From the NCBI GenBank assembly GCA_910592005.1, contig CAJVPP010001950.1, positions 1-17,034 on the forward strand: a DNA stretch of 17,034 nucleotides, written 5' to 3'. Below, piece by piece: positions 1 through 16,960 of this stretch (positions within the stretch are counted from its first letter, which is position 1; the number at the start of each line of letters is the position of its first letter). The notes beneath the pieces were generated by a model, which saw only the letters and a list, made by a program, of their open reading frames with translations, did not search any database and was not told the origin of the DNA. Source of the DNA: Funneliformis mosseae (lineage: Eukaryota; Glomeromycota; Glomeromycetes; Glomerales; Glomeraceae). A program made the position numbers and the translations under genes.

Positions 1-560
1 TTGCATATTTCATTATTACCATATAATTTAAAGTATTTGGATCTTGAGTAAATCCATATAATTGAATAAGATTTTCACTTGAATATTTTTTTAATTGACT
101 ATAACATTTATAATGATGTTTCCACTAAAATAAAATAAAATAATTTAAAAACTAATTATTTAAAATTAAATATAATTATTAATTTATACCTCATTTAAAA
201 ATTCCTCATTGAGTTTTGATGATTTATCTAAACTTTTAAGAATTACGCTAATACTACCATTTCTAATCCATTTTTTATTTTCATAATAATAAGATATAAT
301 AAATCCATCAGTCCAAGTTGCTTTATATATAATACTAAATCCTCCTTTATCAAAATACTTAATATTTTTAAATTTATTGTAAGGAATCCATTCTAATAAT
401 TGCCTTTTATTTTGAACATTTATTTGAATATTTTGAATAAATTTATCAATAAATTTATTTTTACTAGTCCAATTAGAAAAATTCTGTTGAAATAAATCAG
501 AATTACATTTTTTACACCAATAATATCCAGTATTTAATTTTTTACAATTTGGACATATTC
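1..560 (-). other. Zinc-ribbon and kinase N-lobe exons with a 65-nt intron
   Basis: The long exon (560-190, 371 nt) enters in phase 1 through acceptor TATAG at 565-561 and ends on a complete codon (GAG) at 190. The intron at 189-125 begins GTATAA and ends TTTTAG. The next exon (124-1) starts WKHHYKCYSQ and reads into the hinge MVIMKYA at the window edge. The reading upstream of 560 hits an in-frame TAA at 570-568, so the more upstream TTTAG (ending at 571) cannot be the acceptor in this frame. That fixes the acceptor at 561 and requires exactly one leading base from the previous exon, as the microexon chain supplies. These two exons carry all the residues that identify the family. Confidence 0.9.
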
Positions 561-2202
561 CTATATTTTACTAAATTATAAATTATATTATTAGTATTAT
601 TAAAAAAATTTTAAATAATAAATATAATAATAATACTTACTTAATAATATAAAATATTATTATTATATATTTAATAAATTTATTAAATTAATTTAATTAT
701 ACTTAAATTATATATTTAGTAATAAAAATAAAGTAACTTACCCCCTAATAAATAAAATTATTTAAATAAATAAAAATTTAGTAATTTTAAATTACAATAA
801 TAAGAATAATTAAATACTAATAATTAATAAAAATAACTTACAAACTAATAAAATTTATTTTTTTAAATAAAAAACTTAGTTGACTTAAAATTACAAAAAC
901 AAGTATAATTAAATACTGATAATCAATAAAAATAACTTACACTCTAATAAAATTTATTTTTTTAAATAAAAAATTTAGTTGACTTTAAATTACAGTAATA
1001 AGTATAATTAAATACTGATAATCAATAAAAATAATTTACCCACTAATAAAATTTGTTTTTTTTAATAAAAAATTAGTTGACTTTAAATTACAGTAACAAG
1101 TATAATTAAATACTAATAATCAATAAAAATAACTTACACACTAATAAAATTTATTTTTTTAAATAAAAATTTAATTGACTTTAAATTACAGTAACAAGTA
1201 TAATTAAATATTGATAATTAATAAAAATAACTTACATGCTAAATTATTATAAAACATTTAGTTGACTTTAAATTACAATAACAAGTATAATTAAATACTG
1301 ATAATCAATAAAAATAACTTACTCGCTAATAAAATTTATTTTTTTTAAATAAAAATTTAATTGACTTTAAATTATAGTAACAAGTATAATTAAATACTGA
1401 TAATCAATAAAAGTAACTTACAATCTATTGGAATTTTTAAATAAAAATTTTATTTAACTTTAAATTATTATAAAAAAAATTAATAACTTACTTTCTATAA
1501 TATTATAAAGAATATTTAATATTTTATTTAAATTATAATAAATATAATTAATTGAATTAATAAAATAATTTACCTTCTAAATTATTAAAATTTTATTTTA
1601 ATAAAAATTTTATTTATAAATAATAATAAATATTAAATAAAATTATAAATATAAATAATTTACCAACTAAAAATTATTAATTATCATTAAAAAATTTTTA
1701 TATTATATATTAAGTTTAAATTAAAATGTAAAAATAAATAACTTACTCCCTATATTATTAAACATTTTTTAAATAATAGTTTAATTAAATTTAAATTATA
1801 TAAATTAAAATATAATAAAAATTAAATAGTTTACAATCTATTCATTAAATTTTTTTTTTAAAAAAAAAAATATTAATTATTAATAATTATATAAGTAAAT
1901 AATAGATAAATAAAGTTTATTACCATTTAATTCTTTTAATGTAGGAGTATCTGAAACTGATTCTATATTCAAATTTGATATAATTTAATTTTTAGTAAAC
2001 AAAAATGAGTATAATTAACGAATTAGAGTGTAGTTACATATATTACCTTTAGCATCCGAAAGTGACTCTAAGAAAAAAAAAGATTTTAGAATCGTTAAAT
2101 TAATTCGTTTTAATCATATAAAGCTTCATATTTTATATTTCCTTTTCAATATTATTTAATTTTATTTATTACACTCTTACCTTTATAATTACTATTTGAC
2201 AT
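1..2202 (-). CDS. Kinase-like protein with N-terminal zinc ribbon, 18 or more exons, 3' end outside window
   Basis: Proposed gene model read right to left. Exons: 2202-2181, 2067-2047, 1962-1924, thirteen 3-nt exons (1837-1835 down to 744-742), 560-190 and 124-1, continuing beyond the window. The ATG at 2202-2200 begins MSNSNYKESLSDAKES. The model gives 205 residues in the window: a Ser/Asp-rich start (1-27), a microexon-coded linker (28-41), a CX2C-X9-CX2C zinc ribbon (C43, C46, C56, C59), a helix-rich linker, then a kinase N-lobe with glycine loop KGGFSIIYKA (112-121), likely beta-3 lysine K149 in SVILKSL, likely alpha-C glutamate E164, and hinge-like MVIMKYA at the end. The catalytic loop lies outside the window, so activity cannot be judged. 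All introns are GT-AG, and stop codons are absent in the joined frame. The family is hugely expanded in Glomeromycotina; substrate and role are unknown. The kinase exons are near certain; the 5' structure is inferred. Confidence 0.85.
561..741 (-). other. Last intron before the zinc-ribbon exon, apparently two repeat introns fused
   Basis: This 181-nt stretch starts GTAAGTTA like the array introns and ends TATAG. It is about twice the length of its neighbours. In its middle, at 640-635, sits a good internal donor GTAAGT, but the position where the array would have TAG (three bases before it) reads AT at 645-644 instead of AG. This looks like a former fourteenth unit whose acceptor was lost, so that two introns of about 101 and 79 nt are now removed as one. 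The abandoned triplet would be TAA at 643-641. Removing it gives the ...WGIC... junction typical of the family. Confidence 0.6.
742..1837 (-). other. Array of thirteen consecutive 3-nt exons in tandem repeat introns
   Basis: In transcript order the triplets are: ATT 1837-1835, GGA 1749-1747, TTG 1666-1664, AAG 1576-1574, AAA 1494-1492, ATT 1424-1422, CGA 1325-1323, CAT 1238-1236, TGT 1140-1138, TGG 1042-1040, AGT 943-941, TTT 844-842, GGG 744-742. Each is preceded by TAG (13 of 13) and followed by GTAA (GTAAGT 9, GTAAAT 3, GTAAAC 1). Intron lengths from the one before the first triplet to the one before the last are 86, 85, 80, 87, 79, 67, 96, 84, 95, 95, 96, 96, 97. Joined in phase 1 after AAT-G they encode D-W-I-E-E-N-S-T-L-L-E-F-W-G with no stop, and the final G pairs with the GA that opens the zinc-ribbon exon. 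The splice pattern is seen directly; that splicing happens is inferred. Confidence 0.8.
745..1421 (-). repeat. Homogeneous tandem intron repeats (about 96 nt, 7 copies)
   Basis: The seven introns at 745-841, 845-940, 944-1039, 1043-1137, 1141-1235, 1239-1322 and 1326-1421 are close copies of one another. On the minus strand each runs GTAAGTTA(C)TTTTATT, then a TTAATTATACTTGTTACTG-like block, AAAGTCAA(C/T)TAAAT, a T/A-rich stretch and TATTAG (ATTTAG in one). The copy at 1239-1322 lacks part of the segment near its 3' end. The copy at 745-841 has drifted most. Six introns further upstream in the gene (1425-1923) share the splice ends and parts of the body; 1425-1491 is clearly a shortened relative. 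The repeat unit is intron plus 3 nt, so it also counts as a tandem array of about 99 bp. Confidence 0.9.
1924..2202 (-). other. Three short 5' exons (22, 21 and 39 nt), one possibly a duplicate of another
   Basis: Exon 1 (2202-2181) encodes MSNSNYK plus one base, donor GTAAGA. Exon 2 (2067-2047) follows acceptor CTTAG and encodes ESLSDAK plus one base, donor GTAATA. Exon 3 (1962-1924) follows acceptor TATAG and encodes ESVSDTPTLKELN plus one base, donor GTAATA. All three end in phase 1. The first 17 bases of exons 2 and 3 match at 13 positions and both encode ES(L/V)SD, suggesting that one arose by exon duplication. The introns are 113 nt (2180-2068) and 84 nt (2046-1963). A competing acceptor two bases downstream for exon 2 (AGAG) would break the frame. 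Confidence 0.75.
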
Positions 2203-7560: not shown

Positions 7561-8060
7561 CTTTTTTAAATCTTAAAAGCTAGATAAATAAATTCCCTTC
7601 TTCTTAAAATGATTAGAGTTCTCTGAAAATATTTTACTAACATTTTTTTCTTCTTTTAATATTCTTTTATTTTCTTTTTTTAAGTCTTTCAAAATCTTCA
7701 TTATATCAAACAAAATTTATTATAAATAAATTTGTTAAAAAGAATTATTTTATAATATATGTTTATAAATTTTCTTTATACATAATTATATATAATTTTT
7801 AACTAGTAAAATTTAGTATAATAAGATTTTTTTAATAAAGAAAAATTTGTATCATATTAATAATTTATTGTATTGTAAAATTTATTACATTAAAATTTAT
7901 TGTATTAAGATTTAACTATATTAATATTTATAAAAATATTAAGTTTTATAATATATAATTTTATGAAATTTCAGTATAATATATATATTTTTTTCTTAGA
8001 TAAAAACCTTAAACTTAATACAAAAAAGTGTGTGAAACATACAAAAAAAAATAAGAAAAA
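7561..8060. other. AT-rich spacer, nothing recognised
   Basis: Ordinary AT-rich DNA with short TTAAAATTTATTGTATTA-like near-repeats around 7860-7920. No gene or element could be supported. Confidence 0.5.
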
Positions 8061-10039: not shown

Positions 10040-11055
10040 CTAAGATGATTTCCTTTAAGAAATAAGCTAGAAGTGTTTTTTTTTGAAAAAATACTTTAAA
10101 GGTAAATCTCTTCAAGAGAAATGTCTTCAAAAGTAATTTTCTTTAAAAAATATTTTAGAGATGATTCCCTTTAAAGAAACATCTTTAATAAGTATTTTCA
10201 TTGGAAAAAAAGCCTCCAGAAGTACTTTTCTTGAGAAAAAATGCATTGGAAGCTATTTCCTTCAAGAAACATCTTTAGAAGTATTTTTCTTGAGAAAAAA
10301 TATCTCAAAGGTATTTATCTTCAAAAAAATGCCTCTGAAAGTGCAAATCTTTAGAAATCATCTCAAAGGTATTTTCTTTTAAAATTTCTAATAAAAAAAT
10401 GCCTCCAGATGCAATTCCTTTAAAGGAAAAGCTATAAAGATGAATCCCTTTAAGAAAATCACTCTAGAAGTAAAATTCTTTATAAAAATTATTCCAGATG
10501 TAAAATCCTTTAAGGAAATCATTCTGGAAATAAAATTCTTAATGAAATTTATTTTAAAAGTGAAGTTCTTTAAGAAAATCATTCCAAAAGTAAAATTCTT
10601 CAAGGAAATTACTTTAAAAGTAAATTCTTTTAAAGAAATCATTTTGGAAATGAATTCCTTCAAGAAAAATATTTTGAAAGTGAAATTTTTCAATGAAATC
10701 ACTTTAGAAGCAAATTCCTTTAAGAAATACCACTAAATGTATTTTTCTTTAAAGAAAATATCACTGGATTCATTAAAAAAAATGTTACTGGAATCATTTT
10801 CTTCAAAGAAAATATTACTGCTATCATTTTTTTTTAAAAAAATATCACTAGGGCTGTTTTTCTTTAAAAAAATATCATTAGGACCATTTTTCTCTAAAAA
10901 AAATATTACTAAAACCATTTTTCTTTAAAAAAATATCATCAGACCATTTTTTTTTAAAAAAAATATTACCAGGGCTGTTTTCCTTAAAAAATATGGCACT
11001 ATTGTCATTTTTCTTCAAAGAAAAATCCTTTAGATTTATTTTTTTCAAAGAAGAA
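10040..11055. repeat. 30-bp tandem repeat array, about 33 units with hairpin core
   Basis: Units such as GTAAAATCCTTTAAGGAAAT plus CATTCTGGAA follow one another head to tail at 30 bp. The core TTCTTTAAAGAA is nearly palindromic. Three subtypes occupy successive blocks: to about 10440 (core CTTGAGAAAAA or CTTCAAGAAA), 10440-10730 (GTAAAATTCTTTAAGGAAAT type), and 10740-11055 (CATTTTTCTTTAAAAAAATA type). As 30 is a multiple of three, decapeptide-repeat frames (V-K-F-F-K-E-I-I-L-E style) open on both strands; these are taken as artefacts of the repeat. Confidence 0.88.
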
Positions 11056-15696: not shown

Positions 15697-16960
15697 TGTT
15701 CCTTAGGTATAATAGGTATAATTGTACCTAAGGAACGATAGTATTATCGTTCTTTAGGTACGACGAATTTATTGTACCTAAGATACGATGGTATTATAGT
15801 ACCTAAGGAATGATGGTATTAATGTTCTTTAGGTACGACAATTTTATTGTACCTAAGGAATGATGGTATTATCATTCCTAAGATACGATGCATTTATCAT
15901 TCCTTAGGGATGGTTTTATCGTTTCTTAGGGACAATGGTATTATCGTTCCTTAGGGACGATGGTAATATCATTCCTAAGGTACAATGCATTTATCATTCC
16001 TTAAGGACGATGGTTTTATCATTCCTTAGGGACAATGGTATTATCGTTCCTTAGGACGATAGTATTATCGTTCCTAAGGTATGACGATTTTATCGTTCCT
16101 TAGATACAATATATTTATCGTTCCTTAGGGACAATGGTATTATCGTTCCTAAGGTACGATGCATTTATCGTTCTTTAAGGACGATGGTTTTATCGTTCCT
16201 TAGGGACAATGGTTTTATCGTTTCTTAGGGACAATGGTATTATTGTTCTTTAGGACGATGGTATTATCGTTCCTTAGGTACGATAGTTTTATCGTTCTAA
16301 GGTACGATGCATTTATCGTTTCTTAGGGACAATAGTATTATCGTTCCTTAGGATGATGGTATTATCATTCCTAAGGTACGACGCATTTATCATTCCTTAG
16401 GGATGGTTTTATCATTTCTTAGGGATAATAGTATTATCGTTCCTTAGGGATGATGGTATTATCGTTCCTAAGGTACGATGCATTTATCGTTCCTTAGGGA
16501 TGATGGTATTATCGTACCTAAGAAATGATAGTTTTATCGTTCCTTAGGTATGATAGTTTTATCATTTTAAGGTACGATACATTTATCGTTTCTTAGGAAC
16601 GATAGTATTATCGTTCCTTAGAGACGATGGTAATATCATTCCTAAGATATGATGCATTTATCGTTCCTTAGGGACAATAGTTTTATCGTTCCTTAGGGAC
16701 AATAGTATTATCATTCCTTAGGACGATAATATTATTGTTCCTAAGGCACGATGATATTATCGTTCCTTAGGTACGATGGTATTAATATTCCTTAGGTACA
16801 ACGATTTTATCGTACTTATAGGAACGATGGTATTATCTTACCTAAGAAACGACGATTTTATCGTTCTTTAGATACGATGCATTATCGTTCCTAAGGCACG
16901 ATGATTTTATCGTTCCTTAGGGATGATAGTATTATCATTTATCGTTCCTAAGAACCGAAC
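15697..16960. repeat. 25-bp palindromic satellite, about 50 copies
   Basis: The unit is a 19-bp dyad of the form ATCGTTCCT(T/A)AGG(G/T/A)ACGAT plus a 6-bp linker (GGTATT, GCATTT or GGTTTT), giving exact 25-bp spacing (for example cores at 16442, 16467 and 16492). The dyad includes CCTNAGG. Linker types recur at intervals of roughly 75-100 bp, hinting at a higher-order repeat. CpG is common here while rare elsewhere in the window. No coding capacity. Confidence 0.92.

Follow-up and report, generated by a model that had tools for sequence, protein, structure and literature searches.

A gene of Funneliformis mosseae very probably contains thirteen genuine exons of one codon each, which would be recognised by intron definition, joined in genomic order in phase 1, and together encode a diversifying segment at the N-terminal side of a zinc ribbon. 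The gene lies on the minus strand of the stretch of DNA analysed here (17,034 bases; "the window"), which is one entire contig and cuts the gene off at its end. What is read directly from the DNA is the anatomy of the array, its phase, the avoidance of stop codons, a conserved head and a shared intron family. Translation is little proven by the window alone, because thirteen random triplets often stay open, and the evidence for it comes from the paralogues.

The array in the window and its predicted gene

When both strands of the window are searched for TAGNNNGTAAR, 13 matches are returned, all of them on the minus strand between 737 and 1840, whereas 200 shuffled versions of the window average 1.57, and none of them holds more than 6. 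Within 560–1930 of that strand, TAG and GTAAR stand 3 nt apart 13 times, and any other spacing from 0 to 30 nt occurs once at most. A first-pass annotation of this DNA had claimed thirteen TAG-triplet-GTAA(A/G) units spaced 3 nt apart, and this is borne out, since all 13 matches of the window fall in the array and 3 is the dominant spacing; the triplets, found at 742–744 to 1835–1837, fit the bounds it gave for the run (742–1837), and its introns of 67–97 nt likewise agree with ours. It is the run and not the single match that is special, because across the whole genome single matches show no excess, at 7690 where the backward-read pattern gives 11,692.

In the predicted gene, three exons of 22, 21 and 39 nt precede the 13 triplets, and these are followed by an exon of 371 nt and by at least 124 nt of the next. 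The features are as follows, in window coordinates.

2181..2202, minus strand: exon 1, 22 nt, with ATG and a GTAAGA donor; MSNSNYK; ends in phase 1 (predicted gene model)
2047..2067, minus strand: exon 2, 21 nt, with TAG acceptor and GTAATA donor; ESLSDAK; phase 1 to phase 1
1924..1962, minus strand: exon 3, 39 nt; ESVSDTPTLKELN plus G; several paralogues have a similar exon before the array (judged by eye)
1835..1837, minus strand: 3-nt exon 1, ATT; head, completes GAT (D)
1747..1749, minus strand: 3-nt exon 2, GGA; head, TGG (W)
1664..1666, minus strand: 3-nt exon 3, TTG; head, I
1574..1576, minus strand: 3-nt exon 4, AAG; head, E
1492..1494, minus strand: 3-nt exon 5, AAA; head, E
1422..1424, minus strand: 3-nt exon 6, ATT; head, N
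1323..1325, minus strand: 3-nt exon 7, CGA; variable tail
1236..1238, minus strand: 3-nt exon 8, CAT; variable tail
1138..1140, minus strand: 3-nt exon 9, TGT; variable tail
1040..1042, minus strand: 3-nt exon 10, TGG; variable tail
941..943, minus strand: 3-nt exon 11, AGT; variable tail
842..844, minus strand: 3-nt exon 12, TTT; variable tail
742..744, minus strand: 3-nt exon 13, GGG; variable tail
745..1421, minus strand: seven introns of one family of about 96 nt, with six unlike triplets between them (TRF: 7.0 copies, 751–1422)
561..741, minus strand: last intron, 181 nt
190..560, minus strand: exon of 371 nt; zinc ribbon GICPNC..WCKKC and start of the kinase-like region
1..124, minus strand: next exon, cut by the contig end

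Joined, these exons are free of stops and read MSNSNYKESLSDAKESVSDTPTLKELN-DWIEENSTLLEFW-GICPNCKK..., in agreement with the open, in-phase joining into the GIC zinc ribbon that the first-pass annotation had proposed, and all junctions as far as the 371-nt exon fall in phase 1. A transcript form without any of the 13 triplets would also have an open frame, as had been remarked there of joining 1924 directly to 560. The introns between triplets measure 67–97 nt, with 86 nt for the first intron of the array and 181 nt for the last; the gene's other introns are 65, 84 and 113 nt long, so that the array introns are of ordinary length. Elsewhere in the window, 15698–16936 holds a satellite-like array of about 50 copies of the 25-nt unit GTTCCTTAGGTACGATGGTATTATC, and 10448–11026 holds diverged 30-nt tandem repeats (about 9 and about 8 copies) with some frames open on both strands.

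The 371-nt exon matches 165 database proteins at E≤1e-3, and those relatives that name an organism, among the 120 of 165 listed, are kinase-like, HCP-like or hypothetical proteins of Rhizophagus. Similarity extends across the zinc ribbon and the kinase-like region, which makes the gene a member of a Glomeromycotina family of zinc-ribbon kinase-like genes; in its own genome assembly (82 Mb in 4154 contigs) the exon has at least 154 matches, the window included. In the 205 residues present before the contig end, Pfam finds no kinase domain at E≤0.1, so the kinase label of this gene rests on its relatives, and the zinc-ribbon match in the same residues is sub-threshold (13.5 bits against a cut-off of 25.7). 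Neither a NACHT nor an ANK domain is found by Pfam in these 205 residues, and the array is filed with the codon-sized mini-exon genes of truffle type by its gene structure, not as a member of the NACHT-ANK receptor family.

Paralogous arrays and their introns

Among the 29 next-best paralogue loci, 28 carry at least two TAG-NNN-GTAAR units, which with the window's own locus makes 29 of the best 30, L036 being the sole one without. Longer regions were taken for 20 paralogues; on their coding strand 291 strict units lie before the exon and 2 after it, and the opposite strand has 2. With the window added, the strict upstream units on the coding strand come to 304, with 4 strays elsewhere, and 4 isolated units of the 304 were dropped from later tests, leaving 300. 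The longest array, at L046, spans about 4.2 kb and counts 40 strict units, or 43 once gaps are filled, and the shortest of the longer regions, L045, has 2 units near a contig end. As splice-site anatomy, then, many 3-bp exons do stand in series, 13 of them in the window and 40 strict ones at L046. A further array, of 15 strict single-codon units (L059, 1824–3369), comes before a kinase that has no zinc ribbon, with the Pfam kinase domain in two later exons, and the arrays are therefore not confined to one subfamily. Eleven units were found at L060, where no kinase-like frame of at least 60 codons was seen by eye on that strand within 4 kb.

The exon match lies 167–193 bases beyond the last strict triplet in 11 of the 20 other arrays and farther away in 9. 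In the window and in 11 of the 20 other arrays, the last intron has roughly double the usual length. By eye, two AGs that lie 6–10 nt apart precede the zinc-ribbon exon in many arrays, and in several of them only the second fits the frame.

A scan for acceptors and donors in which the exon length was left open gave a distance of 3 nt in 289 cases, while all other distances from 0 to 60 together gave 20 and none occurred more than twice; the count of 289 is partly circular, because the splice-site matrices were trained on units at distance 3. The gaps between known units provide an independent test, their fills lying outside the training set. In double-length gaps the best-scoring exon is 3 nt long in 35 of 41, and a chain fit with exon lengths of 1–24 nt free gives 3 nt for 37 of 38 filled exons, with 15 further gaps left without a resolved fill. 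The fills often have variant splice sites such as GTATG or CAG, and the odd one of the 38, in the decayed locus L047, is 2 nt long. The array of L041 opens with ATTT before GTAAAC, which may be an exon of 4 nt, and the gene's zinc-ribbon exon is intact. Unit counts run as far as the last strict triplet, and the missed-unit search likewise stops short of the stretch beyond it, which is long in 9 arrays.

The 225 introns that separate neighbouring units are 65–109 nt long, most often 95–96, and form one family with a strong donor of consensus GTAAGTTATT. Over shared columns their identity is 0.83 within loci and 0.80 between loci, and the best-matching intron lies in the same locus for 49 of the 225. 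With a 96-nt query that is 98% identical to the intron at 944–1039, at least 422 matches are found in the genome, and in having many near-identical copies at many loci the family resembles introner-like elements. Those near-full-length matches that were listed include 24 neighbouring pairs on 14 contigs, 20 of them 3 nt apart and 4 of them 4 nt apart, the latter spacing arising where the intron alignment begins at base 2. A branch-point-like CTAAH motif occurs in the last 60 nt of 124 of the 225 introns, YTRAY in 85 more and neither in 16, as counted in the real introns alone. Consensus RNA folding of 53 introns gives an energy of 0 for real and shuffled alignments alike and is thus uninformative, and one window intron folds at -6.9 kcal/mol, a value for the real sequence alone. 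The commonest base falls below 0.70 in 13 intron columns, of which 11 vary C/T or G/A and 2 A/T, the pattern to be expected if copies decay mostly through transitions.

The triplets between these introns behave differently, as G+C is 2.5% at the A/T intron columns but 23, 19 and 39% at the three triplet positions. Where the flanks are 0.95–1.0 identical, the triplets agree at 0.43 per base (158 pairs, 13 of them with identical triplets), and at 0.40 where the flanks are 0.90–0.95 identical (662 pairs); these flank identities leave out gap positions, and chance triplet identity, estimated from base frequencies, is about 0.39. Introns of 0.93–0.97 identity have neighbouring triplets at about chance. 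With gaps counted as differences, only 3 intron pairs, too small a number for a verdict, reach 0.97 or more, and they share the triplet in 1 of 3 cases upstream and in 1 of 3 downstream; among 18 pairs at 0.95–0.97 identity, the triplet is shared in 3 upstream and 1 downstream. Adjacent triplets are identical in about 26–27 of 318 cases against 26.0 when shuffled. Duplication of triplet-plus-intron units followed by point mutation was rejected, since the triplets are near chance though their flanks are near-identical and since adjacent identity is not raised. For a 3-bp target-site duplication, rare triplets give a weak hint (5 against 2.2, P 0.07). Two accounts would fit this contrast: homogenisation or insertion of the introns without regard to the triplets, or diversifying selection under which the triplets change many times faster.

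Phase, order and the predicted segment

A stop arises in phase 1 when a triplet that ends in T is followed by one that begins with AA, AG or GA. Adjacent strict units form 226 pairs, and 4 of these make such a stop where 12.2 are expected (P 0.0016); in phase 2 the count is 66 against 57.6. For the final test, filled units and two more loci were added, giving 18 loci not labelled decayed and 5 decayed ones. The 18 undamaged loci have 1 phase-1 stop in 281 adjacent pairs against 12.7 by shuffling, with none of 5000 shuffles as low, and the decayed loci have 4 in 37 against 2.0 (3 in 32 against 1.4 without L060); in all 23 loci the count is 5 of 318 against 14.7, and 4 of 5000 shuffles were as low. 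Stops are not avoided when the order of the triplets is reversed (13 of 281), nor between adjacent pairs in phase 2 (85 of 281 against 79.0). Phase 0 is beyond the reach of order shuffling, and there 6 of 312 triplets are themselves stops against 12.2 by base composition, a plain model that may exaggerate this mild shortage. Individual exceptions exist: L042 has a phase-1 stop in its array despite an open zinc-ribbon exon, and at L056 a looser unit, ATT before GAA, would make a stop that lies outside the strict set and is uncounted.

The predicted peptide has a largely conserved head, D-W-I-x-E-N, encoded by six successive triplets, and a tail that varies. The array start was judged visible in 16 cases, 14 of which have GGA (W) near it, and in 13 of these 14 the codon after GGA is Ile (ATT or ATC); GGA is a filled unit in L040, L044 and L047 and the first strict unit in L041 and L054. 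With the preceding exon taken to end in G, as it does in the window, the heads, whose successive triplets are all separated by introns, read as follows.

Window and L044: D-W-I-E-E-N
L040: D-W-I-K-E-N
L043: D-W-I-V-E-N
L046: D-W-N-D-E-N
L053: D-W-I-D-E-N

Exceptions are L056 and L057, which start differently, L055, which has one residue fewer, and L041 with its first unit of 4 nt. The tail is mostly unalignable even where the zinc-ribbon exons of paralogues are about 90% identical; triplet order is shared at z above 3 in 19 of 210 locus pairs, and what the six best, which were inspected, share is mainly the head. At L059, whose kinase belongs to another class, the array is followed by an exon with ASKWIENALKSEKVKF, and a similar W-I-E motif (ASKWIENALKSE) stands there uninterrupted. 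A motif scan of the loci for a head peptide contiguous in one exon returned other motifs only, for example LLEWIPYN and NWIRNN.

The first-pass annotation had claimed that a peptide is built codon by codon through splicing, and the spacing in the paralogues, the avoidance of phase-1 stops between neighbours and the conserved head all lend support to this prediction. What the stop pattern clearly protects is the predicted joining of neighbours in genomic order, and such avoidance between neighbours in order points to splicing in series over a free choice of subsets. We infer that splicing proceeds as drawn. Each intron of 67–97 nt would be recognised as a unit of its own, by intron definition, and the introns would be removed one after another until the whole series of triplets is joined, in order and in phase 1; recognition across the intron together with serial removal would permit exons of 3 nt. 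The product would be an N-terminal segment made of a largely conserved head of six residues and a hypervariable tail of variable length before the zinc ribbon. Since the exons are 3 nt long and the junctions are in phase 1, codons could be gained or lost without a shift of frame, and with shared, homogeneous introns around unrelated triplets the array most likely supplies an expanded signalling family with quickly evolving peptide diversity.

It could instead be envisioned that the gene draws a large combinatorial repertoire from splicing in many different subsets of its triplets, as the truffle NACHT-ANK genes are reported to do. Any subset would indeed keep the frame, as all array exons are 3 nt long and in one phase, and alternative splicing of codon-sized exons is the view published for Tuber melanosporum in the excerpts cited below. 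If skipping were common and meaningful, stops should also be avoided between triplets at longer distances. Avoidance is weak at distance 2, with 7 stops in 252 pairs against 11.4 (P 0.067), and absent at distance 3 (10 of 225 against 10.4) and distance 4 (12 of 201 against 9.2). Of the eight distances from 3 to 10, seven are without significant avoidance, the exception being distance 7 with 2 of 147 against 6.7 (P 0.02); we consider this use of subsets unlikely. It is very improbable that the array is nothing but a tandem repeat within one long intron, from which no triplet ever enters the mRNA. The introns do form a tandem repeat, their family is widespread and skipping keeps the frame open, but a repeat gives no reason for strong variation at the three bases between AG and GT, and it leaves the stop avoidance, its restriction to one phase and one order, and the conserved six-codon head unaccounted for.

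A separate matter is how such arrays arose, and one answer, compatible with serial joining of all thirteen triplets, is that mobile, introner-like introns were inserted 3 nt apart into a coding sequence of which the triplets are older exon pieces. This would fit introns nearly as alike between loci as within them, their hundreds of genomic matches, the minority of introns whose best match is in the same locus, and the chance-level triplets beside introns of 0.93–0.97 identity. It fits less well with arrays that range from few to more than 40 triplets with hardly any exon of 6, 9 or 12 nt, and with the lack of a contiguous head exon in the loci scanned, and on balance we regard this origin as somewhat unlikely. 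One ancestral exon chopped up by introns is unlikely as the sole origin, intermediate exon lengths being nearly absent.

Known systems and the meaning of the arrays

The codon-sized mini-exons of truffle nank genes were reportedly first described by Iotti et al. in 2012. Excerpts from later papers speak of "multiple codon-sized microexons" (PMC4986451), "dozens of 3 bp mini-exons" (PMC9815663) and "tens of codon-sized microexons" (PMC3689799) in the NACHT-ANK genes of Tuber melanosporum, and alternative splicing of 3-bp long microexons is mentioned in an excerpt of another (PMC10197012). The first-pass annotation's statement that it knew of no described run of so many single-codon exons, taken as a claim of novelty, falls with this precedent (PMC4986451, PMC9815663, PMC3689799). 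As far as these excerpts go, the likeness is that 3-bp exons occur by the dozen, that the fungal gene family is an expanded one and that the structure is seen as diversifying part of a protein. The truffle genes encode ascomycete NACHT-ANK receptors in which, according to the excerpt, alternative splicing diversifies a potential C-terminal recognition domain (PMC9815663), whereas the genes considered here are zinc-ribbon kinase-like genes of Glomeromycotina type in which the segment is N-terminal to the zinc ribbon and the signal is one of neighbours in order. This is a second case of long runs of single-codon exons, and it differs from that of the truffle in gene family, protein region and phylum; unlike the truffle view, the array triplets seem to be joined constitutively. 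A literature search for microexons with Rhizophagus or arbuscular mycorrhizal fungi, which covered subscription journals thinly, found no run of 3-nt exons in Glomeromycotina.

Schistosome micro-exon genes and aphid bicycle genes likewise have many very short exons and fast-evolving products, but their exons are mostly 5–36 nt long and their products secreted, whereas here each array exon is one codon and the gene is kinase-like. Copies of introner-like elements are near-identical, and a difference from them is that the copies here are arrayed 3 nt apart. In fungi such elements are described, in an excerpt, as multiplied, invasive spliceosomal introns (PMC4457414). Animal microexons, of 3–15 nt, resemble the present exons in size and are described as included or skipped singly, and runs of single-codon exons go unmentioned in the part of that review drawn on here (PMC13149111).

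Finding long runs of single-codon exons in another kind of fungal gene, and in dozens of its paralogues within a single genome, suggests that they are no truffle curiosity. They make it testable how the spliceosome handles, repeatedly, exons too short for both splice-site complexes at once, and near-identical introns decoupled from unrelated triplets require some mechanism by which codons diversify. Such codon-array segments will probably escape gene prediction, and ordinary RNA mapping is likely to show one long intron in their place. By analogy with the truffle receptors, one might guess at a role of the variable segment in recognition or in the choice of partners. A broader proposal, which we put forward tentatively as possible though short of probable, is that, throughout the genome, proliferating or homogenising introns carry or create single-codon exons before many kinases, in a system that arose independently of the truffle and has a fixed head, a tail rewritten much more quickly than its surrounding introns, and constitutive reading of one codon from each exon. 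If this is true, codon arrays would be a germline mechanism for the diversification of intracellular signalling proteins.
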